A stretch of 64,000 nt of DNA, taken from the NCBI RefSeq assembly GCF_036785885.1, contig NC_092312.1, forward strand, positions 11,426,001-11,490,000, given 5' to 3'. This document shows, one piece after another, positions 26,506 to 62,511 of the stretch; positions within the stretch are counted from its first letter, which is position 1, and every line of letters starts with the position of its first letter. The notes under the pieces are model-generated. The model saw nothing but the letters and a program-made list of their open reading frames with translations. It was not told where the DNA came from and searched no databases. The DNA is from Coffea arabica (Eukaryota > Streptophyta > Magnoliopsida > Gentianales > Rubiaceae). A program made the position numbers and the translations under genes.

Positions 26506-26543
26506 GGTTCCAACTGAGGTGTAATCTTATGGTCATTCTACCC

Positions 26544-33502: not shown

Positions 33503-33510
33503 CCTATAAA
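33503..33510 (+). promoter_or_regulatory. TATA box of the cystatin-like gene
   Basis: CTATAAAA about 50 bases before the ATG at 33557 fits a plant TATA box and implies a leader of some 20-25 bases. Confidence 0.55.
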
Positions 33511-33556
33511 ATTGGAACATAATTCTCTTACCACATATCCAGAAAACACACCAAAA

Positions 33557-36958: not shown

Positions 36959-36991
<33 letters not shown>

Positions 36992-37296: not shown

Positions 37297-37957
37297 ATGT
37301 CGGAGGATGAGAAGTTGTTGAAGGAGGCGAAGAAACTGCCATGGGAAGATAGGTTAATGCATAAGAATTGGAAGGTGAGGAACGATGCTAACATCGACTT
37401 GGCTGCCGTCTGCGACTCCATTTCCGATCCTAAGGACCCGCGCCTCCGGGAATTCGGTGAGTTAGGGCTTTCATTTCATTTTCCCAGATCTGATTTGTTG
37501 TTGTGCGATCTTAGCTTCGTCCATCCCTGTTTGAATATGTGTAATGTGGGTGATTATTCTTCAGCTGGATCTCACTTTTGCTGAATTGTTGCGAAGTAAT
37601 TCGATTTTGTGTTTGGGCATTTTTATAGGACCATTTTTTAAAAAGACTCTTGCGGACTCGAATGCGCCGGTACAAGAGAAGGCGTTAGATGCCCTAATTG
37701 CCTTCTTAAAAGCTGCTGATGCTGATGCTGCGAGGTAATTTTAATTTTATTTCCCTGAATTTTAGTTCTGGTTGTAACAAGCTTAATTCTGTTATCTTGA
37801 ATGTTGTGTGTATGCGTATGTATTTTCTGGTAGATATGCAAAAGAAGTATGTGACGTGATAGTGGCAAAATGCATGACGGGAAGGCCAAAGACGGTGGAG
37901 AAGTCACAAACGGCATTTATGCTGTGGATGGAGTTGGAAGCTGTTGAGCAATTCTTG
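37297..37957 (+). CDS. MOR1: MOR1 (XMAP215/CKAP5 family) exons 1-3, 5' part of a broken gene
   Basis: Exons 37297-37456, 37629-37734 and 37834-37957, all GT-AG, encode 130 residues beginning MSEDEKLLKEAKKLPWEDRL. This is the N-terminus of MOR1/GEM1, the plant microtubule polymerase that adds tubulin at plus ends through arrayed TOG domains. The segment is the first half of TOG1 (KNWKVRNDANIDLAA; ADSNAPVQEKALDALIAFL). It ends in phase 0 at LEAVEQFL. The next exons expected from Arabidopsis (about residues 131-238) are not found downstream on + or in the inverted block. The gene resumes on the opposite strand at 50083. The identification is certain. Whether the break is real or an assembly error cannot be told from sequence. 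Confidence 0.95.
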
Positions 37958-40900
37958 GTATTCATTCTGATTTCCTGTTTAATTTATTTTATTAGTGTTT
38001 TTATCTTTTACTTTAAATAGTATGTGTTTGAGAATACAACGTGTGATGTTCATTGTGCTTGTGCTTGTGCTGTGCTAAAGTGAACTTACTAGTCATGGAA
38101 CATTCATCATATCTTAATGCTTGGTTGATCCTTAGCTGGTATATATGCTTCATAGATGTCATTTTAGGGAGTTTCCTGATTCATAATTTGTTTTGATTTC
38201 TGTAACGTGGGTTAGAGGCTTGCAGCTGGCAAAAGCTATAATTTTCAACATTGCTGTCTATGTAAATTGTTTTTCACATTATGGGTGTTTTTGATTTAGT
38301 TGTAGTGTGTTCGACTATCTTTGACCTGGGAATCAGCACTCAAGTTTTTATATATATGCTCTCCTTTTCCTGAAATCCTTTCTGTCATGCAAATTTTGGA
38401 CCAACTTATATGAATAAGCATACAAACTGAACCTACTCAGCAGTGTTGATATTTGCAAAAAACTGCAGTAGAACCTTCAAACATGTGCTACAGAGCTGTA
38501 ATTGTTATATATATTCTACTCAGTGTGAATCACTGAGTAGAATAGCACTGAGTAGAATAGCTGAATTTTAGAGTGGATGAATAGCGTTTTGCCAATTCAT
38601 CTTCTCTGAATTAGTGATAAAGAAGAATCCCATGCATGACATGCCATGTTGGCATGTTATTTCGTAAAATTATGAGTCCTTCTATATTATAAATGTTAAT
38701 TCAGGCCGTTATGAGTAGATATTTTGGTGATGCACAGATTGATAATATCTCTGTGGTTTAACAGTAACATGAATAGAGGCAAGGCAGACTTGTGTATGCC
38801 AAAGAATTTCCTTGGCTTCTTTGTTTCATTGTGGTCCATATGTTGATCTTCCACTCTTTTGCTGGTTACTGTTATTGATTTTGTATTTTGATATCATAAT
38901 TATATACTAGGTTCTGTATTGTGAGTATTCAAGTTAAGTAAACGATAGTGCCTTGCATTGTCAAATTCAAGATATGAAGAGCTTACTATTCATAAACTGG
39001 AAGTATGGACATTATGTCATGGAATATTTTGGCAAATGAAAGAAAGCAATAACTTAATCCATCGTTGGTCCCTTCACAGAGGGATTCACTTGCATTATTT
39101 CCACAATGATCAGCACATTTGTGAATATGAATAAGCTTGTGTTTGTAGCATTACTTTTTGCACTTTCCTTGAAATCTTTTGTCAACTGGAAAAGAAGAAA
39201 TATTGTATAAGCGTTGTATTGGCCTACTTTGGGTAGATAGAAATGAAATTAAGTTCAGGACTGATTGGAATATGCCCTTGGATTATGGATTTGGTTCTGA
39301 TGAAGCAACAATTTTTGAATGGATGCGGGACTGACTGAGATTTATCTGGCCTTTGTGAGAGAAGTCAATGGCCCATTGGGCGCACTCACAGTTGCTAGTT
39401 GATAGTTACAGTTGTTTTATCTACACTTTTTGCTGGTCAATCAGTTGTTGCAGGCGTGTTTAGTCTGACGTCAAAACTTACATATAGATATTCTCTTTCA
39501 GTGAATAGGAATAGTTACATCCAAATGCTTACACCAGATATTCCTCAAATCTGGCTTTCACCACACTCTACTTCAACTACATTGTTGTGGAATTAGAGAA
39601 AGAGATGTTCTTGATTTTTGAAGGTATGGCTGGAGCAAAGAGGTTGTACTGATGGGTATGTGCTTGGTGTTGGTAGTAGTGGTTGGGCATCTTAGTCGCT
39701 GCTTTGTCGAGAAGCTGAAACATTTGAATGATGAAGTCAAAAGGAGAAAGTTGTTGGAATTTGAGAATGGACATGGTAAGGGTTGGACAGACAAGTTGGA
39801 AGCAAGATCTAGAGTGCTAAGGCTAATCGAAGGAGAATGAGAAAACAGTTTTCCTGGTAGATGTATAATGCTCAAAGAGGGAAGTGCTATGACAGAAAAC
39901 CTGGATGCTATTACAAGGATGAAATATGAAGGGTGAATCTTTGCAATAGTTTGTGCTTTGAACTGCTGGTTTAATTAAGGTTATGCAGAATGCAAATTTT
40001 AAATCTTTGGATAAGAAGAGCATTCAGCTATATTGCTATGAAGGAAGAAAGATTCTAGGCAAGGTGGATAGATATTATCTTTCTTTTGGAAAGAGAAGTA
40101 CATCCATTGTCAATAGCCAGTAGACACTCTGAACTGGGTCAATATACCAATTTAAGACGCAAAGCAGCAAACGAGTTGTTATGTAAGCTGATATAGGACA
40201 CTATTGCATCTAGTAGAGTAATTAACTTTCCCATAAAGGCATCCTAACTGGTAGGAACTTAATTAAGAGCTGAGAATAAGAGCTGACTCCCTGGAAATGG
40301 CTACTAACTAGGTTGAACAATGAAGATATCCCATTTGGATACTTAGGTGGTTGTTGAGTTGTGGGAAACTTTCTAGGTATTTGTGGAGTGTAATGGGCTG
40401 TGTGATGGAATTTGACAAGATGTGCTGGATCCTCTACGGTCGAAAGAAGAAGTCTGAAATTGAAGACACTCTGCAGCTGTGATTTTGTATTTTCTGGAGA
40501 GAGTAAAAAGAGGACCTTCAACAGAATGGGCAAGGACATCGAAAAGCTAGAAGCTGCTTTCTGGAATATACCATGTCTTTGATAAATCCTAGTTATCTAG
40601 TCACACTTCATCAATTGCATGGTCATTGGATGGAACATATTGTTGGTGCTGAAATAGGTTTCAAAGTAACTTTAGCTGCATTCTTTAGGTTTATTGTTTT
40701 GTAACTAAAGCTTTACCATCTTGTTAATTCATTAAAAAGTGGTTTCAGGGTACAAATACTGTAAACTTGTGAATTTTGGTGCACGTACAAAGGCGATGCA
40801 AGAGTTTGAAACTCAGTAGATAAGTTGAAAAGGCAAAGTGCTTTCTGAAGGGTCTGAAAGAGTAAAACTTAAATGTAACTTTAACACTAATTAACTATTG

Positions 40901-41725
40901 GAACAAAGTTCGAGAAGGATGGTGAGAGAGTTCGTTTAACCTTGACACAGAAGGCTTATGATGATGTATTGATGGTCCTTTTTTTTGGAATTAAGGGCAG
41001 GGAGGGGCCTCAAGATAGAGGTACAAATCGGGGATATGTTCCTGTTTTCTTGCAGTATTTATCACCATCCAAGTGATTGGAGTTGCTCTTTTTTTTTTGG
41101 ATCTGATGAAGAGCTAAGCCATGAAAGTACTCTGTAGAGATTGAGCCTTGGAAACTTAATTTCTGTGTATTGCAACTAATCCATCTTTTGTTGCTTGAAG
41201 AATTGAAATAATTATGGAGGGACTTATGCTGGGAATATGTGAACAGGGATAGCGTATTTCCAGTGGATTGGAAGACATTATTGACACCTCCAAGGAAGCA
41301 GATTTATTATAAAAAATAATAATTTTTTTGTAAGGATTAGGAGAAATGGATATATGGATTTGCTGGTCATTTGAGATGTTTAAGAAAATGAATTTGCAGA
41401 TCTGCTGATAATCATATGGCAAATAGGGTAGTCTGTTCAAGGAGCATTATGGTTGATGGTTGTAATAAAAAACAATTTGAAGGTCAAAGGTACTCAGTGA
41501 TCTTGTTTTGAGCTTTCTCATTTGGAATAGAATTCAGAAACACTGGTCAGTTCGAGTTTGCTGTTTTGGAAAACTAATCGAGTCTTATGGATCATTTAAG
41601 CGATTTGATGGCAGTAATTGGAACATGGCTTTTGTTGGATCTTTCTACATTTTTGTTGTTTTGTTTAGATATCATTTTTCCTGGGTAATAACATGGAGTT
41701 CATGTGAGGGAAGTCGCTGGTTTGG
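37958..41725 (+). other. Interval after MOR1 exon 3, no exon found
   Basis: I searched by eye for the missing TOG1 exons and saw none. The sequence looks like ordinary intron to about 39200. Further on, fragments such as LEARSRVLRLIEGE (39780-39840) and IPFGYLGG (about 40328) faintly recall LINE reverse transcriptase, but too decayed to claim. Near 38514-38561 a 13-base inverted repeat (ATTCTACTCAGTG) forms a short hairpin followed by a third copy. The interval ends abruptly where the inverted arm begins. Confidence 0.45.
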
Positions 41726-44187
41726 TGACGAATAAACCCAACTGTCAAAAAATGAGTGCTAAACAGAACAGAAAGACAATTAATAGAAGGTAAAATCTAA
41801 GAATAGAGTCTTCCCAACTTGCAAGATCAACCAGAGAACTTCACAGAAAGTAAATGATAAGTTGTGAAAGTGCTGTAGGAAAAAAATTTTCTGGCAAATC
41901 CTGTTAGATTTACTGGACAGAATAAAAGGCTTCCTACAACAAAATGCAGATTGAGAAGAACATCACCAGCTCTCATTTGTCCCTTACCATACCAATTATC
42001 ATAATATACAATACATTCAAAGTCTGAAACCAGTTATGGAAACAGGGCTTACTCTCTGGAAAACAAAGCCCGGACCAACAGCTTCACAAAAAGTAGAAAG
42101 ACACTTCATTGCATGAGCTCTTGTCTTTATATCAGCAACTCTTTCACTAATACCTGTCAGCCAAAAATACATTTCGCATAACAAAACCAGATGCCAAGTG
42201 TGCACGTGTGTGTATTAGAGACTAAAATTAATTAAAAAAAGCAACTCACCTAGAAGGCATAGCACGACACATTTTTTTGGAAACTTTGAAGCAGTTGAAG
42301 CAATATGAGTAATAACCTCAATAACCTGCTGCTGAACCTGCAGTTGTCAGAGGGAAACAAGGTATCAGCTTATCGATCCGGATGGAACTCACAATAAACT
42401 TTACATTCTTATGAGACTATAAAGAGCATAGAATAGGAGTACCTGAACATTTTTCTCACCCCAGCCTGGAACAGCACAAAGCAAACGGACCAAAATCTCC
42501 ACTGATGGATCAAGTTCTTGTATTGCTTCAACCTGTTCCTTGAAAGAGCCAATAGCTGCAATGGGAAGGGAAAAAAAAATTTAACTGGGTAACATCATAA
42601 ATGAAGCACCATAAGCACATACCACTACTTTTAGTTCCTAACTACTAAAAAAAACTAAATGCACTGTAACAAGTTCATAAGTTTTGACTAGAACAAGTAT
42701 GAGCTTGATAGACAGGGATCAGAAAGAAACTGAAAAGCACATACTATTAAACCACTCAACTCTTAAAGTTATGGTCATCATGGTCTCTATGAATATCCAG
42801 TCATCGTTGTTAGGATTTGCCCAATATTCTAAGCTCAACAAGTAAACACCATCCATAGTCACAGTGGCGGATCGGGTACCTCGCAACTACACAAACCTAG
42901 CACAAATAATGTATGACAACAGTAAATGGAGCATGGACTGTCTCTCTCTCACTCACACTCTCTCTCTCATCAATCATTAAACGATTTTACATCACAAGGT
43001 GAAAAACCTCCAAGATTGTATACTGTGAAGTACACTCACTTCCCCTCGTTTCCAAATAACTTTCATTGTCTTAAATTCAGACATGGCAGGTCAATATATT
43101 GACAGAAGGTACAATATCTGTTCCCAGCCACTGCTCACAAGATGCTTGGTATGAAAATGAGCAATCTAAATAGACAATGGCACTGGTGACAATGGCCATT
43201 AGTAGATGAAGAATTACCAATAACTATTACAGATGCAAGTATCATTCGCTTTTGTTCTCCAAACCTCAAATATTAAACACTGCTTTCTGCTATATGAACG
43301 AACTTCAAGAATTGATTTCAAAGGGGAAACTATGTTCTTTAGTTTTTGAAGGAAAAAATAAAAAGTACCTTCCAGCCGCTCTTTCCACACAGTACTTTTC
43401 AATTGAGATATAGTATCTGCTTGAATTAGGGAACCCAATTTCTCTTCAACTTCTTCAAGACTCATTTCAGCTGGCTGAGAATGCAACACAAGAAATTCAA
43501 CAACTTTGTACAGCAATGCCAAAAAGAAACACCAGTTATGCATTCCAATTATCAAATTGCTAAAAAATAACTAGACCTCAACATCTTCAGTTTCTGCAGG
43601 CTTTGAAACTTTTGCATGCCCAGATCCATCCCCCTTTTTGTTAACACCCAATTTAGTTGATGCTGCTTTCTTATTAGCAGGCTGAAACATTGAACTTCAA
43701 GTCAAAAAATGTGCCGGAAGCAAGATAAATTTGCCAAAGGAAAAAGTAAAAACAATGCACAGTGTGTAAATACAGGATTGCAGCATACAATACTTACAGC
43801 TGCCTGAACAGGTTTCTTCCCACTCAGCATGCTTGCTGCAGATTTCCGAGCAAATGATCCGTCTGAAACCTGCAAGAGACCATAAACTTACAACTGCAAA
43901 TATGTATATAAATATAAATATAAATACACACACACAAATATATATACGTGTGTATACATTAAGTACATACATACATACATATATATACATATATGTATGT
44001 ACGTGTGTGTGTGGGGGGGGGGGATACTGTCCATGAGTGACTGCCAAATATGGTCTAACAGCCAAAAAGCATGCCCATGTACAAATATCCAAGTCAACTA
44101 TACACGAACAGTAACAAATCTGTTTGAAACAAATGTCAACAAAAATAAAAGCTAAAAGAATTTTTGTTAAAATAAACATTATCAATT
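41726..44187 (-). repeat. Left arm of a 2462-bp inverted repeat within MOR1
   Basis: Every base position x here pairs with 94422 - x in 50235-52696. This constant sum holds for all shared frames and for spot-checked introns, so there is no net indel. A run of eleven G (eleven C in the other arm) and the TA/CA microsatellites match in length. The arm carries MOR1 exons on minus at 43869-43798, 43681-43577, 43474-43369, 42555-42443, 42337-42250 and 42153-42053. The loop between the arms is 44188-50234 (6047 bp). Confidence 0.93.
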
Positions 44188-45889
44188 CCCTGGCTGGAAC
44201 TACCCATGGTCATTTAAACTCAGAATCTTTTGTAGTTTGATTGGCTTTCCACTATCCAAAGAACTCATTCCAAAGCCTCCCAAAGGCTTCAGGTGAGTCA
44301 TTAACTACCCCTATAAAACCATCTCCTTCCCAATGAGAACATATCCTATTTCTAAACTATCCGACCAAGATGTATCAAATTACAATGACAGCCTAAATAG
44401 GAGAGTTTAATAGCAAGAAGCATTCCAAGGCAAGAAATTCCACAATTTGAATAAATCACGACTCAGTAGGCAAGAGAAGCCTGATTTGATGAACCAAAAT
44501 TGGAGCTCCCAAGCAGAATACATATCACATCATTAATTTCAAAAAATTTGCATATATTCGTTCTTATACATTCATACTATTTATCTCATATAGATAGATC
44601 CTAAATGATAAAAACAACCAAGAACATCCAACAACATCAACAAAAGGACAAAATATTCACCTCCAAGGAAGACGAACTGCCTACTGAAGCTTGAATTGCA
44701 CCTGTCATAAATACATGTTAAGACACATAACAAAGAAAAGAACTTCTGAGTGGTTTAGAACAAACACCTTATAAACAAATGCATACAAATCAAAACAATC
44801 ACTTCATACTTGAACTGGAAACTACTGCTGGACCACCTCCAGAGCCACCAATCATTTCTGTAAGCTTCTTTTTCCTGACATCATCAAGTTTTTCGAGCGA
44901 CTTTTCCAACGGTCTCATGCCCACAGACTATAAAAGAAATAATGAGAAGAGACAAATGACCGTGGCCACATTCATAGTAAACAAGCATCAAGCAGTCAAT
45001 TAGCTTAACATAAAGGAATTGAATGGAACAGGAAAAATTACCTTAGCTATCGCCGTCAAAGCTGAGAAAGCGGCATCTCTAACTTCAGGTGTCCCATCAT
45101 TTAGTGACTGCAACAGCCAAATCATTTTCCAAAGGGATGGATTACAAGATATTATTGATCAAATCATCAGACAATAGCACAGGAAAGGAAAAGATGCCAG
45201 CATCATAGAAAAACCATCATTGTGGAAATGGTAACACACTGCAACAGCATGATTAAAATCTGAAAACCATTTAATTACATACTAATATGCATGAAAAATT
45301 TACACCCCAAAAAAATAAAGATCAACATGTTATTATGGTACAGTAACCTAAAGAATGAAATTCCAGAAATAAAGTATAACAACATCGCTCCTCGCATCAA
45401 CTTGATTTTCCTTTCTTCAAGTTTTAGAAAATCTAATATTCACTTTAAAATGCAAGTCTCCAACTTGTGCCAAAAAGTCAAATAGGGAAATGTAATCAAA
45501 GCATCCAGATTATTTCACAAAGCACAAAGATGCACGAAACATTTTTCTAAAGTAAATATATACGAGAAGTGACACAAAACAACATCATATATATGGTGGT
45601 ATGTTGATCAAACTGTATGCTTACCTCCATGCATATTGGCACATACTCCTTGTGTACTTTGAGGATGACAGCTTTATTGCTTGTCTCAATGCAAAATGTA
45701 ACCCAGTTCAAAGTCAAAGATCGCACAAGGGGTACTTTATTCTTAACAGCAACCTTAACATCTGCAACAACAATGGTCTTTGATCAGGATAAGCCTTCAG
45801 AAGCACCAGAAAATGAAACCAAGTATAAAAAACAGAGGATGAAAAAGTAAATCTGATCTTCATATTTCTGCTCAGTATTTCAGCAAAGG

Positions 45890-45942
<53 letters not shown>

Positions 45943-48900
45943 AAATGATAATCCAAAATTGTATACTTGTTCAGTTGGAGTTAAATCACATCTTTCTGCA
46001 ACTGATAACCAACATAAAAAAAGGGCTACCTGCACTTGCTGAGCCCACAAAAATATAAAACTTGAGTGCAGTGCCCTTTTCCGTGCCAAGAACGAGTTCT
46101 ATTCAACCCATTCAATAGTATAGGCCAATATTAATGCGTTCAAGTAATAGGTTATCCAACAGCAAGGTATGAACTTGCTTGTCTAAACTACTCATAAAGA
46201 CAATCACTCATGTGACAAACATTTGCAATTCCACAAAAGAAGAAAAAGAAATCCAAGCAAAACAAGATAAGTATACATAAGCTGCACATAAAAAATCAAA
46301 ATCATCATGAAAACAAGCTTTCAATATTATATCAAATATTGTGGAACATATCATACACAAACATTAAATAACCCCTCGTATAGAAACAAAACCTGCCTTC
46401 AACAATATCAGCAAGATTTAAGCACCCTGATTTGTGCATTGCCTGGAGTGTTTGAGTAAGAGACTCTGCCAAAGCAGGTTTTTTTTCCTTCAGTTTTTCC
46501 TGGAAAACAAATAATGCACAAGATTAGTAATATTAAAGTCAAAACCCCAGGCCATGGTATGGACCAAATAGACAAGAAGTTCACTCGCACGAGTGGAGAC
46601 CAAAAAGACAAAACAACTTTTCCGACTAAAACTGCAATGTTTATGGTGTATTTATAAGACTGCAACCTTGCAGAAATTTTTGCTGTCCCAACATTCATTT
46701 TAATTGTCTAACACAATATTTCAAAACTCAAGTTGTAAACACCATCCTTACATGGTACTTCAACAGCAAAGTACTTTTGTGCACAGGATATGACATGGGT
46801 GCTGTTATTTAAAAAGTATTGGGCCTGGTAAAATGTTAGTTGGGTAGATTTACTTTGATGGAGCTCTTGCACCTTACTAGTCCTAACAGAAACCCACTTT
46901 ACAACATAGGATTAATGAGCATAAACATAGGAACTGTGATAGCGTAACTGTCAAGTATGGCAGGCTAACTCCCAGGTATTTTAGCCTCGGTTAATCAAAT
47001 ACCTATTTCAGCTATATAAACCAAAAAAGAGATTCTTCTATTATATAACTTCAACAAAATAAACAGACATACTTTAATATGTGTACCTAAACATTTGGCT
47101 GCATTCCCATACCAGATGCAAGACCATCTATTTCAGGATCAATTTATCCAGACAAAAAGGACTATAATAAAAATGTTGTAACATAAGAACATTTTTCTCC
47201 TAAAACTACAAAGGTTGCTTAGACGATTGAGCAAGCAAACCCTGACATTTCACCATGCAAGTTCTAGTATCATAGGATGAAAATTACCAGCAAAACAGGC
47301 AAAAGAAGGCGAGAGCTCCCTGAAAAATGTGTTCTTAATCCACTTGCAAGATTTCCAATTGCTTGGACAGCTTCCACTGCAACAGCTATGTTTACATCTG
47401 TAATGAGCTGCAAAGTCCCCAATAAAAGTCACTACTCCAACTATAAGAAGAAAAGAAGGTTAGCCTTGGAATTTATAATACAAAAAGCAAGTAAAATGCA
47501 CCCACCCATCCTTTTATTTCAGTTAGACTAAAATAGATGCCCTTAATATTCACATAAGAACTTGAGCTACCCATAAATTGTCAAATTTACAGAAAAGAAT
47601 TAACTATATTCTTCTTTTGACAAGTATATGTGGCAGAGGAAGCTGAAGAACCAGAAACCAGTAAGTAACATAATGGATGCTCCACCATACAATTATTAAC
47701 TCCCTGCCACCAACTCGCTCTTATGAGGCTAGAATGAGTCTAATTTTAATGCTCTCACCACATGCGGAACCAAAATGAATTTTTAATCTCACAGTGAACA
47801 ACTATCAGACTGGTAACCTATGTAATTTGCCAAAGAAAATCAATATCATTCCTCCTCTGCATGGCAAGAGCATTAATGGTTACATGGCTGAGTTTAGAAG
47901 CCAGGCACAAGTTTTTATTACAAAAAGTCCAGTAAAGTCTTAAGGGTCTAGTCCAAAGAATACATGTACAGCTTCATATCGCAACCACAGGGCACGTTAA
48001 CATCCGCCCATTTTTGGTTCTAAAACTCAGTTATAAGGCAACACAGTGCACCAGAAAATTAAAACTGAAGCAAATTAACCAGATTGCTATATCCTAAACT
48101 CTCGACTCAACTTGAAAGCCAATGCTACAAAAAATACAACACCTTCAAAGCAATGGATTTTTCAAATAGATAACCAATAAGAATCATGAAAAATTGCTAA
48201 ACTTGATGATTACACAACTTACATGGACAACAACAGGTATTTGTTTTGTCATTCGCCTGTCAGTTAATAAACTGTAACTAGATAAATCAAAACAGCAATC
48301 TACAATTGCAAATCAACAAGCTACTCCATTCCTGTATGTTGAATGACAACCAGCTAATAACTCACATCTCAACACCTTTTCACCATTGTCAGTCACATTA
48401 ACTCGTGTTCCACATTCAATAGTCCTTTTCCTCAATCAGCCACTTTCAGAATGCTACACCTTCCTATTACTAACCGAACACCCCAAATTTCTGAACCATG
48501 TTTGACATGAAAGTAATCATTAGGTCCCCATAATGTTCGACATTTTGGGAAGTCCAACCTCTAAACCACAGAAAAGAAAGTGGTTGAATGGATGACTTTG
48601 CAATTCTATCATAACAAATTTAACCACATGTGCATGTGGATGCTTAGAACAACAATACAAACTTTGTGACCAGACAAGTGGGACCAATGTGAATTGAAAT
48701 TTAAAAATAACTCTAGAGTGTGCTTTGCACACATGAGCAGCCAGTGTGCTTCGCTTTCCTATTAAGTACTGTTTGAATATCTTATCAGTATAAAGTTGAT
48801 AACTTTCCAACAGTAAAACAAAAATTTGAATAACGCTATAAGTTGGAAAGTGAAAAAAGGTTAAAACTTGTGGTAAGATGACTAAACAACCAAAAGAGGA

Positions 48901-50083
48901 AAGTAGGGCTATATCGATGTGGCCAAGGGGGACTAACCAATTCTACCTCTTTCTAATTGCGTCATACCCTTCAATCAATTCCAAAGAGTCCTACAGCCAA
49001 TTTCAAACAACTGGAGGTAAAAAAGTGACCGTTGGTTGCATAACTAATACACCACCTAGTCAACTTCAACTAGAGGTTTTAGCAGTCTAGTACCCTTTCT
49101 TTCAAGGATTATAGCAGGCTAAAATTACAAAGCCAGAACGGACCAAGCAAAAACTAGACACAAACCAAGGGCAGAGGCAGCTGTTTATAGCAATTCACCC
49201 TGATAACTAATATAATGAAAACATTGCAGTTGCAGCACAAGTACGAGTTAACATGACGAGATAAGACAAATTCAAGCTTCTGATTGTTCATTAGGAGAAC
49301 ACCAGAACTTCAGGTGTCCAGATTTCAACAACTAAACAGAAAGGCACCGAATAAATAAAACAAGGCAGGAAAAATCTCTCAAAAAGGACAGCAGACAGGT
49401 GAGGAATTGGAGCTTTTTGTCTCCAGCAAAATGGTGTATAAACCAATTAGAAGACTTGCAAACCTTCTTAAGTGTCCGGCATATCTCTGTGAAATCACCA
49501 GGAGCTATCCTTTTGGTAGATGCAAGCTTGGTTAACTCTGCAACAGCTTCTTTCCGCTCTGACCACTTTGCAGCTTTCTGAAATATCAAGACGGACAAAC
49601 AAAAAGTTACCTTCCATCCTACATAAATTAGCCCAATAATGAGATGATAAAAGATGCTTAAGTAAAAATCACAACAGTAATAACGATTTGTGTGTTTATA
49701 TGAGAGAGTGAGTGAAGCACTAACCACTCCATCCCAAAAACCAGACTTCTCCAGAGGCGTCAATATATCAACAGGATCAACAAGTTCATACTCATCTATC
49801 TCCTGATGAACTGACAAGAAAAGATTTGTCAGGCCCAGGCAGGGAGGTCAAAGGATATATAACTATATTTGAGCATGCCTTGAAAGACAAATCACCATTT
49901 TAATGCCAGTTCAAGCCATTGCTTTTCTTCAAATTCAGCACCAATAATTAATGTGACAAAAAACAGAAGAAGAATCCATTTGGCAGGGTTAGTCGCATAC
50001 CTTCAGCTGCAGCTTCTTCAGATGGCCCAGAAATCACAGCCTCAGAAGCAGCTTCATGTTCTGGCTCCTTGTCTTGCTCAGAT
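42053..50083 (-). CDS. MOR1: MOR1 internal exons in inverted orientation
   Basis: On the minus strand fifteen MOR1 exons follow in correct order. Nine are single copy: 50083-50001, 49810-49725, 49577-49464, 47407-47288, 46499-46397, 45761-45625, 45107-45042, 44927-44810 and 44701-44661. Six more lie in the left repeat arm. The single-copy set encodes about 290 residues: the linker EQDKEPEHEAASEA, the TOG2 start QEIDEYELVDPVDILTPLEK, then WSERKEAVAELTKLAS through VRKKKLTEMIGGSGGG. Phases fit throughout. One intron uses a GC donor after 46397. No promoter or start codon belongs to this strand, so it is not an independent gene. The first exon begins in phase 2 at (R)SEQDKEPE, which fits a missing upstream exon. 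After 42053 the coding order should continue with LYKIMKEHK, which is only present at 52729 (+). Confidence 0.92.
43905..44023. repeat. TA/CA microsatellite and G11 run in the left arm
   Basis: Alternating TATA, CACA and TACA units end in eleven G. The inverted copy at 50399-50517 matches in length. It lies in a MOR1 intron, and the 162- to 170-residue frames over it are intron read-through, not genes. Confidence 0.8.
45890..45938. repeat. (TA)n(TG)n microsatellite in a MOR1 intron
   Basis: About ten TA followed by about fifteen GT units, within the intron between the minus-strand exons at 46397 and 45761. Confidence 0.8.
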
Positions 50084-50234
50084 CTGACAAATGTCAATCA
50101 AAAAGTTACCATCAGAAAAGGAAAAACCACTCATCCTATGCAAATTGAATAGTCATCAGCATGCACAGCCTTCATTCACAGACTACAGCAAAATAAACTT
50201 CAAAAAAGTAATGTGCTAAAATCGTGTGGTTTGA

Positions 50235-52696
50235 AATTGATAATGTTTATTTTAACAAAAATTCTTTTAGCTTTTATTTTTGTTGACATTTGTTTCAAAC
50301 AGATTTGTTACTGTTCGTGTATAGTTGACTTGGATATTTGTACATGGGCATGCTTTTTGGCTGTTAGACCATATTTGGCAGTCACTCATGGACAGTATCC
50401 CCCCCCCCCACACACACACGTACATACATATATGTATATATATGTATGTATGTATGTACTTAATGTATACACACGTATATATATTTGTGTGTGTGTATTT
50501 ATATTTATATTTATATACATATTTGCAGTTGTAAGTTTATGGTCTCTTGCAGGTTTCAGACGGATCATTTGCTCGGAAATCTGCAGCAAGCATGCTGAGT
50601 GGGAAGAAACCTGTTCAGGCAGCTGTAAGTATTGTATGCTGCAATCCTGTATTTACACACTGTGCATTGTTTTTACTTTTTCCTTTGGCAAATTTATCTT
50701 GCTTCCGGCACATTTTTTGACTTGAAGTTCAATGTTTCAGCCTGCTAATAAGAAAGCAGCATCAACTAAATTGGGTGTTAACAAAAAGGGGGATGGATCT
50801 GGGCATGCAAAAGTTTCAAAGCCTGCAGAAACTGAAGATGTTGAGGTCTAGTTATTTTTTAGCAATTTGATAATTGGAATGCATAACTGGTGTTTCTTTT
50901 TGGCATTGCTGTACAAAGTTGTTGAATTTCTTGTGTTGCATTCTCAGCCAGCTGAAATGAGTCTTGAAGAAGTTGAAGAGAAATTGGGTTCCCTAATTCA
51001 AGCAGATACTATATCTCAATTGAAAAGTACTGTGTGGAAAGAGCGGCTGGAAGGTACTTTTTATTTTTTCCTTCAAAAACTAAAGAACATAGTTTCCCCT
51101 TTGAAATCAATTCTTGAAGTTCGTTCATATAGCAGAAAGCAGTGTTTAATATTTGAGGTTTGGAGAACAAAAGCGAATGATACTTGCATCTGTAATAGTT
51201 ATTGGTAATTCTTCATCTACTAATGGCCATTGTCACCAGTGCCATTGTCTATTTAGATTGCTCATTTTCATACCAAGCATCTTGTGAGCAGTGGCTGGGA
51301 ACAGATATTGTACCTTCTGTCAATATATTGACCTGCCATGTCTGAATTTAAGACAATGAAAGTTATTTGGAAACGAGGGGAAGTGAGTGTACTTCACAGT
51401 ATACAATCTTGGAGGTTTTTCACCTTGTGATGTAAAATCGTTTAATGATTGATGAGAGAGAGAGTGTGAGTGAGAGAGAGACAGTCCATGCTCCATTTAC
51501 TGTTGTCATACATTATTTGTGCTAGGTTTGTGTAGTTGCGAGGTACCCGATCCGCCACTGTGACTATGGATGGTGTTTACTTGTTGAGCTTAGAATATTG
51601 GGCAAATCCTAACAACGATGACTGGATATTCATAGAGACCATGATGACCATAACTTTAAGAGTTGAGTGGTTTAATAGTATGTGCTTTTCAGTTTCTTTC
51701 TGATCCCTGTCTATCAAGCTCATACTTGTTCTAGTCAAAACTTATGAACTTGTTACAGTGCATTTAGTTTTTTTTAGTAGTTAGGAACTAAAAGTAGTGG
51801 TATGTGCTTATGGTGCTTCATTTATGATGTTACCCAGTTAAATTTTTTTTTCCCTTCCCATTGCAGCTATTGGCTCTTTCAAGGAACAGGTTGAAGCAAT
51901 ACAAGAACTTGATCCATCAGTGGAGATTTTGGTCCGTTTGCTTTGTGCTGTTCCAGGCTGGGGTGAGAAAAATGTTCAGGTACTCCTATTCTATGCTCTT
52001 TATAGTCTCATAAGAATGTAAAGTTTATTGTGAGTTCCATCCGGATCGATAAGCTGATACCTTGTTTCCCTCTGACAACTGCAGGTTCAGCAGCAGGTTA
52101 TTGAGGTTATTACTCATATTGCTTCAACTGCTTCAAAGTTTCCAAAAAAATGTGTCGTGCTATGCCTTCTAGGTGAGTTGCTTTTTTTAATTAATTTTAG
52201 TCTCTAATACACACACGTGCACACTTGGCATCTGGTTTTGTTATGCGAAATGTATTTTTGGCTGACAGGTATTAGTGAAAGAGTTGCTGATATAAAGACA
52301 AGAGCTCATGCAATGAAGTGTCTTTCTACTTTTTGTGAAGCTGTTGGTCCGGGCTTTGTTTTCCAGAGAGTAAGCCCTGTTTCCATAACTGGTTTCAGAC
52401 TTTGAATGTATTGTATATTATGATAATTGGTATGGTAAGGGACAAATGAGAGCTGGTGATGTTCTTCTCAATCTGCATTTTGTTGTAGGAAGCCTTTTAT
52501 TCTGTCCAGTAAATCTAACAGGATTTGCCAGAAAATTTTTTTCCTACAGCACTTTCACAACTTATCATTTACTTTCTGTGAAGTTCTCTGGTTGATCTTG
52601 CAAGTTGGGAAGACTCTATTCTTAGATTTTACCTTCTATTAATTGTCTTTCTGTTCTGTTTAGCACTCATTTTTTGACAGTTGGGTTTATTCGTCA
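50235..52696 (+). repeat. Right arm of the 2462-bp inverted repeat within MOR1
   Basis: Exact inverted partner of 41726-44187. This copy continues into the rest of the gene at 52697, so its orientation agrees with the 3' part of MOR1. At the inner edge the two copies diverge after AATTGATAATG. At the outer edge they diverge beyond TGACGAATAAA, read from the left arm. No target-site duplication or terminal repeat marks either edge. Confidence 0.93.
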
Positions 52697-55600
52697 TCTG
52701 ATACTGTTGGCATTTGTTTTTTTTTCAGCTATACAAGATCATGAAAGAGCATAAGAATCCTAAAGTTCTTAGCGAAGGGATTCTGTGGATGGTTTCTGCA
52801 GTTGATGACTTTGGAACCTCACATTTGGTTCTGAAGGTCTGTAGTGCTTTTTGGAAGTTGTCTACTTTCTAATGATTTTTGGTCTTATCCTTAGTATAGA
52901 AATGAAGTTCCTTTATTTTGGTTACCTAAAGTTACTTTTTATGTTCTTCATCTTTTGCAGGATCTAATAGATTTCTGTAAAGATATTGGGTTACAATCTA
53001 GTACTGCTGCCACTAGAAATTCAACTATTAAACTCATTGGTACATTGCACAAGTATGTCGGTCCAGGTAAATTTTCTGCTTTCTGAAGTTATTGAAACTT
53101 TTTAATGTTTGCAGAAGATATAATGCACCTTCCATGCAGGTATTAAAGGATTTCTATCGGATGTAAAACCTGCTCTTCTCACTGCACTTGATGCAGAGTA
53201 TGAAAAAAATCCATATGAGGTACAGTTGGCTCGGGGATGGTTCTCTTTCATGTTACATTCATTCCCTTATTTTATCTTTTAGTTATACTCTTCAGGAGTC
53301 TAATCTGCAGCACCTATAAGAACCGTTAATCTTTGAGTTCTAATTTGTAGGAGTCTGCAGCACCTAAAAGAACTGTTAAGGCAGCAGAGTCCATGTCATC
53401 GTCCTCAGGTGGTGGGCTAGATAGCCTTCCACGAGAAGATATTAGTGGTAAGATCACACCTGTTCTGCTCAAGGGCTTGGAAAGTACAGATTGGAAGGTA
53501 TGACATATACACCTTAAGTTCTGTCTTGAACCATTTTTTGGAATATGCAATTTAGTAGTAATTGATTTATTCGAATTCCAGATACGACTTGAATCTATCG
53601 AAACTGTGAATAAAATCATTGAAGAGGCTAATAAGCGTATTCAACCAACTGGAACTGGTAATCATTTTCCGTGTACAGTGAGGTGGGGTTGATTTGCACT
53701 TTAGCAGCTCATTTTATTTTATAACTTTTTCCTTGGCATTTTTGATAGGGGAGCTATTTGGTGCTCTTAGAGGCCGGCTATATGATAGCAACAAGAATCT
53801 AATAATAGCAACTTTGTCTACTATTGGCGGTGTTGCATCTGCTATGGGAGCAGCTGTGGACAAGTCAAGCAAGGTTAGGGTTGTGTCCTATTTTGATTTT
53901 CACACAAGCTCGCTTTTTTGATGATCATATCGTGAAGACATTGTTTTTTGCAGGGGATTCTGTCAGATGTTTTGAAATGCCTGGGTGACAATAAAAAGCA
54001 CACACGGGAATGCACTTTGAGCACTTTAGATTCTTGGCTAGCTGCTGTTCATCTTGAGAAAATGGTTCTTCCCTTTTGCTTCCTATGATATTTCTGTTGC
54101 CAAAATTGTTTCTAGGTTCTTGATGTGTTGCTTCTTCAGATTCCTTATATTACAACTGCAATAACGGACGCTAAACTTGGTGCGGAAGGTCGCAAGGATC
54201 TTTTTGATTGGTTATCCAAACAACTGAATGTGTTAGTTAACTTCCCTGATGCCACACAGCTGCTAAAGCCTGTGGCCTCTTCTATGACGGTATTTTCTTA
54301 ATGGCATTTCACATTTACCTTAATATACTTGTATGTTTTCATTTTAGAAAATTAAGTCTGCGTGCAACTGCAATGAAAATTTGTTTCTGTTGGCGTAGGA
54401 TAAATCAGCTGATGTTCGACATTCAGCAGAAGCGTGCTTTGCTGAAATTCTCAGGATCTGTGGGCATGAAGTGGTTGGTATTGCAAATCTTGTCTGCTCT
54501 TTCGGGTTATTGATATTTATTTATCCACTTAGACCTTTCCTACATTATCCCATTTAGGTGAGCAAGAATTTGAGAGATATACAAGGACCTGCTTTAGCAA
54601 TTGTTTTGGAAAGGTTGAAGCCATATGGAGGTCTTCATGGTATTCTCCAATACAATGGCTTTAATATTTTTCCTGCTGATTTGTGGATTCCCCAGTTACC
54701 TCTTTCCTTGTGAGGGTTATTCTTGTTTGCTTAGAATCTGTTGATATTTGCGTTTTTAAGCTAAAAGCTTTTTAAGGTGCCTTTTGTTTGGTTGTGTTCT
54801 CCTTCAAGCTTATTTCTACTTCAAAATGTTGATTTGGGAAAGAATTCTTGGTTCCTTTTGCATTATAGCTTTTATTTTTCTGAATTTTCAAGACAAAAGT
54901 ACATTTTACTTTTATTTTGTTTTTAAGAAATTTGAAGAAATTTTGGAAAATTTTAAGCAAAGATATATCTTTTACTTCTGTTGTTGATTTTTAATTCCCA
55001 GAAACGTTTGAATCTGGAAGAGTTTCTGCTGCATCAAAAGGCAGCTCAAAGATTGGAAAGTCAAACGGCTATGGTGATCGTCCAACTAGACATGGAAGCA
55101 AAGCTAATTCTTCAGTATGTTTTCTGCATAGTTGAATTGCATAATAGGGTGGAATATATAAATTTAATTAACCGTTTCTCGGTTTCCTTAGAGAGCTATC
55201 CCAGCAAAAGGCCCAAGGCAAGAGTCCCTTATGTCTGTTCAAGACATTGGTGTCCAGTCACAGGCTTTGCTTAATGTCAAGGATTCAAACAAGGTATCTC
55301 TCAATTCATTTTTGAAGTCTAAATTTTTAGAGTTAGCTGCTCTTGACATCAATATTTGCACAGGATGATAGAGAGAGAATAGTTGTCCGCAGATATAAGT
55401 TTGAGGAGATTCGGTCAGAACAGATACAAGATCTTGAGGTTTGTTGTAGTCAAACATTTACTGACTGTAACAAGAGTTTTTTCTTCAGTATTGTCTATCT
55501 GTCATCAAGGTGCTTGCACTCACTAGTATTCCTATTCAACAGAATGACCTTATGAGGTTCTTTAGAGAGGATTTGCACAGGAGGCTTCTAAGTACAGACT

Positions 55601-58600
55601 TTAAGAAGCAAGTTGATGGGATTGAGATGCTGCAGAAGGTGCATTACTTGTCAGACCTTCTGGTATGTAGTGTTTGGATTGCCTTCTTACTGTTTGTCTT
55701 TTAAACTTTCAGGTGCTCCCATCCATTGCAAAAGATATAATAGAAGTTTTAGATGTGCTCTTGAAGTGGTTTGTTATGAGAATATGCGAGTCAAACACTT
55801 CATGCCTGCTCAAGGTGTTTTTTCACCCATTTCCTGCCAATTAAAGCATATTGCCATAACATTATTGATTTTTGCTTTTTCCTACCTCCTGGGACTCACT
55901 TTTGAAGAATTATTCAATAGGTGCTGGAATTTCTTCATGAACTTTTTGACATGTTGAAGAGTGAGGGGTACATCATGACTGAAGCAGAGGCTGCAATTTT
56001 TCTTCCCTGTTTGATTGAAAAGGTTTTGCCACATGACCTGCTATGTTTAAATTATGATGTTTGCCTGTCTTGTGGTGGTGCCAACAAGCTTTTCTGCCTA
56101 TCAAATGGTAAAAAAATTTATATCTATATTTTTTTGAAAAGAGGCTACTAATATTGATTGTAAAAGTAACTTTTGGCTGCTTAACTGCATTTGGAGTTAG
56201 GTGCGCTTTGTTTTGGTATATTTGACCTGTGGAATTTAGTCCTTGCCATTTAGCAACTTTGTGGTGTATGCTGTGAGCTTTATATTCTGCGAGTTTATTT
56301 CTGCCTACCAAGTGGTGTTTCTAGATACATTATTCGTTATTCATTCCCTGGAAGATACATGTTCTCAGATAGATTTGTGTTTTCTGCAGTCTGGACATAA
56401 CATAGCACAAGTACGAGAAAAGATGCGGGAGTTAATTAAGCAAATAATCCTTACATACTCTGCAGCAAAAACATTTCCATATATTCAGGAGGGCTTACGG
56501 TCTAGGAATAATCGAACTCGAATAGAGTGTGTTGATCTTGTTGGTTTCTTACTTGAAAACCATGTTTCAGAGGTAAAGTCATTATATATCTTAAGCTTCT
56601 GTTCCTTTGGTTTTACTTTCAAGAATGCTTAGTCCTTTCTTCTTTTTCTTCCAGATTTGGGGACATCTGAAGTCGTTGCAATCAGTTGCAAGCTTAACAT
56701 CGGAACGAGATGGTGATATTAGGAATGCTGCTTTAATTACTTTGGCTACTGGATACAAGATTCTTGGTGAGTTTTTATATGCTTCTGCTGATTAATTAGA
56801 TGGACATCTATACACTTGCGACTTTTGTGCTGATTATTCTTCATTATTTTTTTTATTTTAAACTTTGAGGTTGTATATTTTCTGGGTAGGCTGCAAGAAC
56901 GGGATTAACCTTGAGCTTGTCATTATGTTATGCATTATGTATCTACACACTTCTTATTTATACTGGTTGATTTCTTTAGGTGATGACATATGGAAATTCG
57001 TCGGAAAGTTGACAGAGGCTCAAAGGAGCATGTTAGATGAAAGATTCAAGCGGAAGGTGGCAACCTTTTCTCCTTTTCTCTTGGTGGTATTGGAATTTCC
57101 TATCTTGCAGGAGCCCCTTAAAAGCTATTCATATTCAATTTTGGCAGGCACGGGAGATGGACAAAAGAAAGGAGGGAAAACCCGGTGAGATTAGGGCAGT
57201 ATTAAGGCGCTCCGTGAGGGATAATGGGTATTTCCAGTCTCTTATTCGTGTGCCTTTGTTTTGTTCTTCGTACTGAGGGGCTTTTGTTAAATTATTTTCT
57301 TGGAGCAATTTCCTTTAGTGTAGATTGTAGTCTGGCTCCTTATGACCATTCTTTTACGAGTTTGATGTGCTACCTACTGATAATATGCTCTTGTACTATG
57401 ATAACTCATAGCAAGTACAAAAAAACTCATCCTGTCAACTAAAATTTCAGTTGCTTTTTAGCTTTGTGGCTTTGATTCTTTCTGCAGTCAAGAATTGTTG
57501 AACAAGTGTTGTTTATTGGGGTTGTATATATTGTGTGTTAATGCCAAAGTTTAGAATCTATTTCCATTGAATAATAGGTGAAGAAATTAGGCTGTTATAA
57601 GTTCCAGTGGTTCTATATATACTAGCACATGAACGTATAACGCATTCATTTATGTACAGTCTGACAAATGTTTCTTATTTTACTTACAATAAAGCCTGAT
57701 CTGGATTGTCAGCTATCTTTTTTCTGGTGTTCTGTGGATTAGGTGCCTCTCCAGTTGAATTTCTGTTCAGTTCCATCCAGTTCTGTAAAATAGTACCACT
57801 TTGGTGTAAACCGGTACAACTTTGGTGTAATTGTGAGTTCTGCATCAACTTAGTACAAAATTCACAGTTACACCAAAGTTGTACACATGTACACCGAATG
57901 TTGGACCCATTACATAACTGGACAGAACTGGGACTGGAAAGGCCCCATATGGGTGCTCTGGTTCTGTTGTTTACCTAGAGGGGAAAGTTCCTTCTATAAA
58001 TGCCGACTCTCCAATTGAATGTGTGAATGGTTGTTGGCTGGCCTGCGGTGAATGACATGTAAAAATCAATATCACAATTTAATCCTTTTTTTAATAGATC
58101 TGGTCTATCTTGCATGCTTGCATGTAAAATGTTGTGGATGGATGGTTTTGTTCTCTTCTTGTTTGCATGTTAACCATCCTACCTATTTAACAGGAGTAAG
58201 AGATGATTTTCTTCCTTCATGGACAGAAACTTGTACCATTATTCCTTCTCTGTTTCTTCCTCATTATTTGCAACAGCTTTCTAGTTCTATTTCCCACTTT
58301 TACGGTTGCAAAACTATTGGAGTCTGACGATACTTTAGCCAATTTTATAGTATTCTGTTTTCTATAGTTCCTTTTATCCCGCTTTTCTGTAAATTTTTTC
58401 TGCTTCTTTTCTTTTACGTTTACCTTGTACAAGCTCCATACCATATGTATTCTCGTCATCATCCTTTGTTAACAAAACTCTTGTGTTCCTGGCGTTAGTT
58501 TGTATTGGTATTCCAGCCTTGCTCTTTCCTAGTTTCTGCAAATGTCCCTTTTAGACCTCTCAACTTGTTTGCTGCTTTATACAGATTGGATCTAGCAGAA

Positions 58601-61600
58601 CAAAGCGGTGAAGTTTCCAGGTCTACTGTTGGCCCATTATCCAATAGGTACTTAACTACTTCGTTATAATTGCCATTATAGTTACATCATTGTCAATGTC
58701 TTTTTGTGATTAATTCTGTACAAGTTGCAGCTTTTTATCGATTTCTGGTTTTGTTGAAGTTGCTGTTCATCTTAATATGCAAGGTGAGGTTATTAACCGT
58801 ATTTTGTTCTAGGGACAGTTATAGTCATCCAGAGTTTCAAATGGATAGAGCTCCAATCCCTCGGACTGTTCCTGGCACAGTTGGTCCTACGGACTGGAAT
58901 GAAGCTCTGGATATAATATCATATGGTTCCCCAGAACAGGTTTTCTTTTGTTCTCTTTTGTTTAGCCTACTATGTTAGGTTAATGTTGCAGCTTCTGGAT
59001 TGTTGTTGTCTTGCTGGGTGATACTCCAATGTGGATTCTTTTATTCGCTGTTTTTTTTTCTAAGCTAATGTATTTGTGACTTATGATATAGCTCTCGACT
59101 TGCATACTATGGTAATTAATAAGAGGGTTATAGCAAACAGCTGGACCACTGAGAAATTGACAAGACTTTGATGGGGTGGAAATTTGATCTCTCTTTGAAT
59201 GGAGGTTTTAGTTTCAAGTGACAAGTGGGCTAGCTGATAAAAGTATTTTTCCTATGGTCGGTTTGTGGTATGGAATTGATTAATCAAATCCTGTTGTTAG
59301 GTGTGTTGTGGATTCTTGGTAAAAATAATAAATTAATTTTGACTAGCACCAAAGAGAAAATGTGATATTTTTCCTGGTATAAAGATGCAAGCCGCTATTC
59401 TTGGGCGTGTTGTGCATTCTTGTAAAAACTGTTAGTAATTGGTTATTCATTTGCTGCCAAGAGCAAATATGATATGTGGGTGGGAATTGCGCATTACCTT
59501 TTTGTGATTTACTGGATAATTTGCGTTATTTCTTGCAGTCCGTTGAAGGAATGAAAGTTGTGTGCCATGAGTTGGCCCAGGCCACTAGTGATCCCGAAGG
59601 CAGTGCTATGGATGATGTGGTTAAAGATGCAGATAGACTTGTTTCATGCTTAGCAAACAAGGCAACACTTAAATGCTTTCGTTTACAATGTTGGTCCCTT
59701 TTTGTTGTTTTAAATTGGTTCAAAATGCTCACACTATTTGATCTTAGCAGGTAGCTAAAACTTTCGACTTTAGTCTAACGGGCGCCTCCTCAAGATCTTG
59801 TAAATATGTCCTGAACACGCTCATGCAGGTTGGTGCTTATCACTATTGATTGTTAGTTGACCATTTTGGTACTAATAAATGAAGAAGAGATGGTGGACAT
59901 TTACTTTTCCCAGCTGTCATTGGGTTTAATAATTTTAATTTTGGTCCAATCAAGCAATCTATCAACCATAAATGTAATTTCAATACTTTTTTTTTTAACA
60001 GACATTTCAAAACAGAAGACTTGCCCATGCCGTCAAGGAGAGCACTCTTGATAGCCTAATTACTGAGCTTTTGCTTTGGCTCTTGGATGAAAGGGTTCCT
60101 CGGATGGATGATGGCAGTCAACTTTTGAAAGCTTTGAATGTCTTGATGCTAAAAATATTGGTACGCTAATAACTTCGTAATCGATTAGCATTGTTACAAA
60201 ATTCAAATTGTTCTTGTATATTCTGGAGATAATGTCCTTGCTCACTCCTATGTTTGACTAATGGTTGTGCTTCCAGGATAATGCTAACAGAACATCATCC
60301 TTTGTTGTGCTCATTAATCTCTTGCGGCCTCTTGACCCATCAAGGTGGCCATCTCCGGCAATAAACGAGTCTCTTGCTATAAGAAATCAGAAATTTTCAG
60401 ATTTGGTTGTCAAATGTCTGATCAAACTGACGAAGGTGATTCTTGTGGTTGTCTTATTTCCCTACTTATCAGTGGTAGCTATAGAGATAAGTGTATATGT
60501 CTGACTTACTAAATTGTGATACATGATGTGCAAGTGCACACATATGGCCAACTTAAGCCACAAGTAAAAGTTGCTTCAGCTAGAATATGACTAGGAAATT
60601 TACATTTTCTTTTATTCATTTCCCAGTACATCTGCTTTAAACATTTCCTACTGCAGCTTGACACGTTATTATCTCAAAATGATAAGAGTTAAAAGTTAGC
60701 ATCTGTGTGTCAGAAATTATTCCATCTTTTGTCGATCTGGTTTAGCAATTAGCATCGGCTTTGTATGTTTAAGAGCTTTTCACTGATACAGGTTTTGCAA
60801 AGTACTATTTATGAGGTTGACCTTGATCGCATTCTCCAAAGCATTCACATATACCTTCAAGAGCTAGGAATGGAAGAAATTCGCAAAAGGTATCTACTTG
60901 ATTGCTTAGTTGAGTCCTCTATTTGATTGCTTTGTCTGAATAGATCAAGTGGCTACTATCCTTGCATGCTATTGAGTAGATGTAGATGAATCACATGTTA
61001 TTTTAAACTTTTGGTGGTTCTACTTTATAAACAAGGGCGGGAGCTGATGACAAACCGTTGCGCATGGTCAAAACTGTCTTGCATGAACTTGTGAAGCTTC
61101 GTGGAACTGCCATAAAGGGTCACCTTTCAATGGTTCCAATAGATATGGAACCCCAACCAATTATACTTGCCTACATAGATCTTAACCTTCAGGTACTGCA
61201 AGATTTCACATTTGATACTTGATCTTGTTCCTGTGTGCTTTATTCAAAATTGAGATAAATATATTTTGGGAATTGCTAGACCTTGGCTGCAGCCAGAATG
61301 TTATCTCCATCTGGGCCTGTCGGCCAAACTCATTGGGGAGATTCCACGGCCAATAATCCAGCTCCTGCAACCCATTCTGCAGATGCACAATTGAAGGTAT
61401 TGAATCCTTGTTTGAGTCATGTGACTCATCTCTGTCATTGTAGACTATACATTCTCTCCTTTTCATCATTTGCATTTCTTCTTGCAGCAAGAACTTGCTG
61501 CAATATTCAAGAAAATTGGTGACAAGCAAACTTGCACCATCGGCCTTTATGAGCTGTACAGGATTACCCAATTATACCCCAAGGTTAGCAAAAAATAACA

Positions 61601-62511
61601 TCTAGATACTTGAAGTAATCTCTTTTATACATGGACAATATTTACCGTTTTTATGCATCAACTTCTCATTCCTGCTCATTTCAGGTTGATATATTTGCTC
61701 AACTGCAAAATGCTAGTGAAGCATTTCGAACTTACATTAGAGATGGTTTAGCACAGGTATCTACTGAACTGTTTCTAGTGAAGTGCGTATCTATGTGGTA
61801 TGTATGTTAATCAGAGATTTCCCCTTCCTTCTGTTAAACTCCTCTTTCAGATGGAGAAGACTACGGCTGCAGGAAGGACGCCTTCAAGCGTACCCTTGTC
61901 GACCCCTCCTCCAGCTGCACTTAACCTATCTTCCCCAAAATTTGGTGCTTTGTCACCAGTAAATACTAATCCGCTTAGTGAAGCAAAATCGATGAACACT
62001 AAATTAGAACCTACAAACTTCAATTTGCCACCATCATATGCTGAAGATGATCGAGGCAGTGATCCTGCCCTTTCAAGGGGCCCCAGGTTTGATCAGTCAG
62101 ATTCAAGGCATCAATCTGGGGACCAAAGAAACGACAGATTACCATCTGGAGGTTAAATTACTGCATCTTTATATCTCTTCTGCTTGTCTTTTACTGAACT
62201 CTGGAGTAAAATATGGCTGAAATATCATGGTTACTGCAGTTACAAGTGGAGCATTAGATGCAATAAGGGAAAGAATGAAGAGCATTCAATTAGCTGCAGC
62301 TGCAGGAAATCAGGAGCCTGCAAACAAGCCCGTGATAGCTGTGAATGGGAATTTAGGTCATCCCCTGCCAAATCAGTTTCCCCTCGCCACTGAGCATGCG
62401 AGTATTGAAAATTCAATGCCGGGAGGGGTTCTTCCTATGGATGAGAAAGCATTATCCGGGCTTCAGGCACGAATGGAGAGGCTAAAAAGTGGGTCCATTG
62501 AACCTTTATAG
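50553..62511 (+). CDS. MOR1: MOR1 3' part, TOG3 to C-terminus
   Basis: I trace 39 exons encoding about 1,500 residues. They run from 50553-50624 (SDGSFARKSAASMLSGKK) through 52269-52369, 52729-52836, 53351-53497, 53749-53873, 54140-54289, 55543-55638, 56390-56572, 58813-58939, 60002-60160, 60277-60435 and 61036-61192 to 61851-62151 and 62240-62511. Phases agree throughout. Landmarks are the TOG3 motif AVPGWGEKNVQVQQQVIE, later TOG repeats (ESTDWKIRLESIETVNKI; DDRERIVVRRYKFEE), the helical region NRKFSDL-type NQKFSDLVVKCLIKLTK, and the C-terminal MDEKALSGLQARMERLK. Intron 59662-59750 uses a GC donor. Together with the other segments about 1,920 residues are present, against 1,978 in Arabidopsis, with about 107 missing from TOG1. 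The 3' exons look fully functional. Confidence 0.94.
53293..53384 (+). repeat. Tandem duplication of a splice acceptor and exon start
   Basis: CAGGAGTCTAATCTGCAGC at about 53293 is an imperfect copy, about 54 bp upstream, of the true acceptor and exon start TAGGAGTCTGCAGCACC at 53348. Use of the upstream acceptor would meet a TAA after seven codons, so it is a decoy or relic. Confidence 0.6.
57765..57939. repeat. Palindromic MITE-like element in a MOR1 intron
   Basis: GTACAACTTTGGTGTAATTG at 57814 and its inverted partner at 57862-57884 match at 22 of 23 bases. Outer ends (TTCCATCCAGTTCTGT and ACAGAACTGGGACTGG) are also inverted partners. The element lies in the 1.36-kb intron 57228-58584, one of the longest in the 3' part. 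Confidence 0.5.

Follow-up and report, generated by a model that had tools for sequence, protein, structure and literature searches.

The window analysed here, a stretch of 64,000 nucleotides of the Coffea arabica genome (C3:11426001-11490000), contains a scrambled copy of the gene for MOR1/GEM1, the plant microtubule polymerase of the XMAP215/Dis1 family. Middle exons of the gene lie on the opposite strand, six exons occur on both strands and three are missing, and a complete MOR1 gene, identical to the window in every letter that the two have in common, is found 1.28 Mb away on the same chromosome. The features are collected in Table 1. A first placement of the exons came from tblastn with the N-terminal half of Arabidopsis MOR1; the exons given here were obtained by mapping the gene model of the intact copy back onto the window. 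Genome-wide searches covered 131 contigs with 1,197,963,845 bases, among which C4 denotes the homeologous chromosome. There are no N letters anywhere in the window.

Table 1. Segments, joins and genes of the window (window coordinates unless a chromosome is named; primes mark inverted segments).
Feature	Position	Strand	Remarks
Polyphenol oxidase tandem pair	24763-26505 and 28467-30083	-, -	tyrosinase, PPO1_DWL and PPO1_KFDV domains; 78% alike in DNA
Segment A, 15,649 bp	26077..41725	+	equals C3:12756072-12771720 letter for letter; carries MOR1 exons 1-3
MOR1 exons 1-3	37297-37456, 37629-37734, 37834-37957	+	residues 1-130
Novel join A/C'	41725..41726		0 bp microhomology; 1,262 bp with exons 4-6 missing at the join
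Inverted block C'B', 8,509 bp	41726..50234	-	equals C3:12746301-12754809, +
Arm C'	41726..44187	-	perfect 2,462-nt inverted duplication
MOR1 exons 16-21, extra inverted copy	43869 down to 42053	-	
Segment B, 6,047 bp	50234 down to 44188		inverted relative to gene sense
MOR1 exons 7-15	50083 down to 44661	-	sole copy in the window
Novel join B'/C	50234..50235		0 bp microhomology
Arm C	50235..52696	+	perfect 2,462-nt inverted duplication
Segment C+D, 16,414 bp	50235..64000, continuing past the window to 66648 (C3:11492648)	+	letter-identical to the intact copy
MOR1 exons 16-21, forward copy	50553..52369	+	
MOR1 exons 22-53 and stop codon	52729..62511	+	

With the segments lettered in gene sense, the intact copy reads A X B C D and the window A C' B' C D. 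Thus an inverted copy of the adjacent B+C, 8,509 bp long, stands where the intact copy has the 7,309 bp between exons 3 and 16 (X, 1,262 bp, plus B). The two copies of C form inverted arms that are 100% complementary over their 2,462 nt, with 6,047 nt in between, and they are the sole exact inverted repeat of at least 31 nt within the window. The intact copy has one C, as does the C4 stretch compared with it, and the window has two, in opposite orientations. The original prediction had correctly recognised both a block with middle exons on the minus strand between forward parts of the gene (here exons 7-21) and the presence of six exons in opposite orientations (exons 16-21). Its scheme, in which A B C D became A C' B' C D, overlooked exons 4-6 and has to start from A X B C D. 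The heptamer TGGTTTG, followed by one further base, precedes each of the two novel joins (window 41718-41724 and 50227-50233).

No counterpart of exons 4-6 (323 nt; residues 131-237) was seen in the window, and tblastn of the Arabidopsis query against the window gave no match for residues 132-237. These exons sit in X, a stretch of the intact copy for which blastn against the window returned nothing. With exons 4-6 missing and exons 7-15 only on the opposite strand, the window copy cannot encode MOR1, in agreement with the earlier claim that no normal full-length transcript can be made from it. Without splicing of exon 3 to a later exon, translation from the copy's own start would meet a stop after 150 codons. 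It is conceivable from the exon lengths, which keep the frame, that exon 3 is spliced to exon 16; the possible product, a protein of 1,609 amino acids, would be without residues 131-527, that is, the end of the first TOG domain and everything up to exon 16.

The intact copy occupies C3:12732349-12771720 (39,372 bp) and is inverted relative to the window. In gene sense it consists of A (15,649 bp), X (1,262 bp), B (6,047 bp) and C+D (16,414 bp). Over the 38,110 bp common to the intact and the window copies there are 0 differences; only the missing 1,262 bp and the order of the segments set them apart. Manual pruning and extension gave a gene model of the intact copy in which 53 coding exons, together 6,021 nt, encode 2,006 residues and end in a single stop codon; two of its introns are GC-AG. 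The introns concerned, beginning with GC instead of GT, are those after exons 11 and 43 (window 46397 on the minus strand and 59661 on the plus strand), and the same holds for the C4 homeolog.

Assignment to the MOR1/XMAP215 family, whose members have several N-terminal TOG domains and about 2,000 amino acids, agrees with what the intact copy encodes. Its first 833 residues match the Pfam TOG family PF21041 in three stretches (E 8.1e-85), and the following 580-residue piece, where the scan ended, matches it with E 4.7e-11. The unpruned model was 65% identical to the N-terminal 820 residues of the Arabidopsis protein. Thus the intact coffee copy is like MOR1/GEM1 in length and TOG domains, and the window copy cannot make such a protein. 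An Rfam scan returned nothing at gathering thresholds. Our literature search for MOR1 in Coffea arabica brought up Arabidopsis work only. The gene is essential in Arabidopsis (PMC9891169), as the original prediction had stated.

The intact model lifts over to C4 with the same exon lengths and splice sites and no early stop, at 52 nucleotide and 17 residue differences; at 4-fold sites of MOR1, 22/918 differ between C3 and C4. Matches to the coffee DXMT (caffeine synthase) protein, at 94-99% in three exons on C17 and at 91-96% in three on C18, pointed to Coffea arabica. We had considered C3 and C4 as two haplotypes and dropped the idea, since this species is allotetraploid and the two are therefore homeologs. 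For the same reason the description of MOR1 as usually single-copy does not hold here. A 1.5-kb piece of the inverted block was found at three loci in the genome, namely the window, C3:12749075-12750575 (100%) and C4, where the match falls into two parts, 1,363 bases at 96% and the last 141 at 80%. A piece from the 3' end of MOR1 was whole at the same three loci among the matches listed (100% on C3, 95% on C4), and the remaining listed matches are to a dispersed repeat inside it. MOR1 is thus present three times in the assembly, twice intact and once scrambled.

The original prediction had reasoned that either another intact allele exists or the reference is wrong, and had advised looking for a second allele or haplotig. 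The first part stands, with the letter-identical copy on C3 and the gene on C4; the second also looks partly true, the signs of a scaffolding error being at the site of the intact copy. A join of 44188 to 52697, which had been proposed as the mark of a misassembly, is not diagnostic. The intact order is marked by the joins A/X, X/B and B/C, and the rearranged order by 41725/41726 and 50234/50235.

Taken as a change of DNA, the step from the intact to the window order would amount to an inversion in which one break lost 1,262 bp and the other gained an inverted duplication of 2,462 bp. There is a precedent in Drosophila mojavensis, in which inverted duplications at the breakpoints of inversions 2q and 2h are ascribed to staggered single-strand breaks followed by end joining (PMC3355041). 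As in the fly, a segment that used to be single-copy flanks the inverted piece in opposite orientations; it measures 2,462 bp in coffee, against about 1, 4.3 and 7.1 kb in the fly (PMC3355041). Unlike the fly inversions, the coffee case measures 8.5 kb, lies inside one gene, has lost 1,262 bp at the other break, shows 0 differences between the copies and is known from one assembly alone. A staggered break around C with both strands filled in, together with a second break at which 1,262 bp were lost, could have been followed by inversion and blunt end joining, and this would give exactly A C' B' C D. Backward capture of a B+C fragment from the sister or homologous chromatid would lead to the same product, and sequence alone cannot separate the two routes.

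The surroundings of the two C3 copies differ. Colinearity between the window copy and C4 extends across both of its borders, past 26077 on the left side and past 66648 on the right. The intact copy, compared with 100 kb of C4, is colinear solely inside its own 39,372 bp. It is flanked by tandem arrays of two units at C3:12.70-12.73 and 12.77-12.81 Mb. One unit, of 3,055 bp, contains a copia gag frame (PF14223), and its copies are 99-100% alike; the other, of ~1,992 bp, has copies that are 95-98% alike. The array after the intact copy repeats, at 100% and up to position 12806293, the 15,000 bp that directly precede that copy, in contrast to the 2-5% differences usual between the ~1,992-bp units. 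At the place on C4 that matches the array, related but different repeats occur in the 30 kb examined. To the right of the array C3 again matches C4, at 12.52 Mb and in the same orientation, and we therefore rejected a large inversion between the two C3 copies. We also rejected a plain insertion of this 39-kb stretch within the array, because the end of the left array and the start of the right one are not neighbours in the array. The array region may be a place where the assembly is unreliable.

The assembly is likely that of line ET-39 described in PMC11018527, which was built from high-fidelity (HiFi) reads with hifiasm, ALLHiC, 3d-DNA and Juicebox. The published assembly comprises 1,198 Mb in 132 scaffolds and 238 contigs "after gap filling" and includes manual adjustment, the gap-filling procedure for the HiFi assembly being unstated in section 13 of the paper; the DNA was sheared to 20 kb and the line is described as di-haploid (PMC11018527). 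The two arms that the intact copy shares with the window, 15,649 and 16,414 bp, can be compared with this 20-kb shearing of the likely source, which stands in for actual read lengths. Of the array pieces, the left shares 15,000 bp beyond the last difference and the right 18,807 bp up to it. It is plausible that both the arms and the array pieces resemble HiFi reads in length.

The two C3 versions form a simple bubble, in which a common A is followed either by X+B (7,309 bp) or by inverted B+C (8,509 bp) and then by a common C+D. The reading we favour, tentatively and short of an even chance, is that the window holds a rearranged version, at the syntenic place, of the MOR1 locus of one subgenome, that the intact twin is a misplaced alternate branch of the same locus, and that both were present in the sequenced DNA. 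The intact version at C3:12.73-12.77 Mb would then be a 39-kb contig that survived separately and was scaffolded, 1.28 Mb from the locus, amid contig ends of the copia-gag array. The plant would be heterozygous or mosaic for a very recent event.

Several observations agree with a rearranged version in the DNA and a misplaced twin. Over its 8,509 bp the inverted block shows no base difference, and it fits its own locus exactly; a short contig placed wrongly by scaffolding would be unlikely to do so. String-graph assemblers such as hifiasm join reads by overlap, so reads must cross the joins of the window if this stretch is a single hifiasm contig. In the intact copy the lost 1,262-bp X is bounded by a 7-bp inverted repeat in register, TGGTTTG / CAAACCA; for such a match among four random cut points P is, post hoc, about 0.007 (0.7% of trials). 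One end of the intact copy cuts a polyphenol oxidase gene, and the assembly has another redundant contig, C47, described below. Outside the differing core the intact copy matches the main path in every letter, as a misplaced contig should, and its flanks are non-syntenic repeats of the kind found at contig ends. In these respects the intact copy resembles the redundant haplotigs or bubble branches that long-read assemblies may keep: it is letter-identical to the main path, lies beside a repeat array and may comprise about two read lengths plus the differing core. It is unlike usual haplotigs in that an inversion and a duplication, and not small variants, separate the branches. Moreover, the normal gene is on the leftover branch, which has been placed inside a chromosome without N.

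Other observations weigh against this reading. No N letters mark the supposed contig seams at the ends of the intact copy, and there are none in the 292,472 letters examined, a survey to which the 1.2 Mb between the two copies did not belong. If these seams carry no N, false joins without N may occur in the assembly, and the joins in the window could be such joins as well. Heterozygosity is unexpected in a di-haploid line, so that a mutation after doubling or a mosaic plant has to be assumed. The value of 18,807 bp for the right array piece hinges on the register chosen in a near-uniform array. The two joins in the window were made without homology (0 bp at both), and an artificial join would give the same; of all five joins, four have 0 bp of microhomology and one has 1 bp, a result that plain concatenation would match. 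The 7-bp inverted repeat at the bounds of X is suggestive at most, as P rises to 0.0375 when small offsets are allowed.

The same facts lend themselves to a purely technical explanation, which we regard as a real possibility, if on the doubtful side: the plant would have one intact, syntenic MOR1 on this subgenome, the scramble would stem from joining or gap filling, and the intact contig would be left over and misplaced. The existence of an intact letter-identical version speaks for it, as do the surroundings of that version, which look like stacked contig ends without N, the gap filling, ALLHiC scaffolding and manual adjustment of the likely source, and the di-haploid line (PMC11018527). A further redundant contig is present elsewhere in the assembly. 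The unplaced contig C47 (25,971 bp) is near-identical at both ends to C21:38755403-38781377, which spans 25,975 bp. The initial 2,000 bp of C47 differ from C21 at 37 positions, the first 20 of which fall at bases 47-76. This was one case of one tested, chosen because two matches looked alike, and its identity was read at the two ends.

On the other hand, hifiasm joins overlapping reads, and the perfect 15.6- and 16.4-kb overlaps with the window copy make it hard to see why a contig should have broken there. An artefact would also have to produce an inverted block that fits exactly into its own gap with no base difference. Two particular forms of artefact were rejected. A gap filled in the wrong orientation would presumably measure 7,309 bp rather than 8,509 and contain X. 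A fold-back read is ruled out by the structure, since C' and C are parted by B'.

The intact copy might instead be a real dispersed duplication, in which a 39-kb segment with intact MOR1 was copied in inverted orientation into the copia-gag array during one recent, complex, chromoanasynthesis-like event, the donor being scrambled then or later. We consider this unlikely. Both copies do lie on one chromosome with no N seen at their ends, and the neighbouring array block is also duplicated at 100%, as one event of the same age predicts; at an assumed plant mutation rate, zero differences would place the event within about 5,600 generations. Against this, some 32-34 kb of the array must have been duplicated in tandem, with the insert coming to lie between the two copies, and the arms of the insert must equal HiFi read length by accident; for arms uniform up to 20 kb, both would fall within a given 1.5-kb range in about 0.6% of cases. 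Microhomology of 0-1 bp at the five joins is also unlike what is generally described for replication-based switching. That a single replication- or breakage-driven event copied the 39 kb into the retrotransposon array while scrambling the donor, so that MOR1 was relocated within one haplotype, is quite improbable.

Whichever account applies, MOR1 appears to have been retained, and the break at the locus is either a very recent mutation or an assembly error. If both versions were present in the sequenced DNA, as we favour, the rearranged MOR1 would be tolerated because the intact version and the homeolog remain, and these would presumably maintain MOR1 function. The window would then display a fresh, letter-perfect inversion with a breakpoint duplication in an essential plant gene. 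If the scramble is an artefact only, the assembly shows an essential gene broken at its proper place and whole at an apparently wrong one, which would mislead annotation of MOR1 and studies of its copy number and selection.

Upstream of MOR1 the window contains the tandem pair of polyphenol oxidase genes listed in Table 1, and the duplicated 39-kb segment, whose left end is at 26077, cuts into the first of them. Further to the left, a stretch of ~4.9 kb (window 13986-18888) has no megablast match of at least 400 bases in the colinear C4 stretch; it is perhaps an insertion on C3 or a loss from C4.

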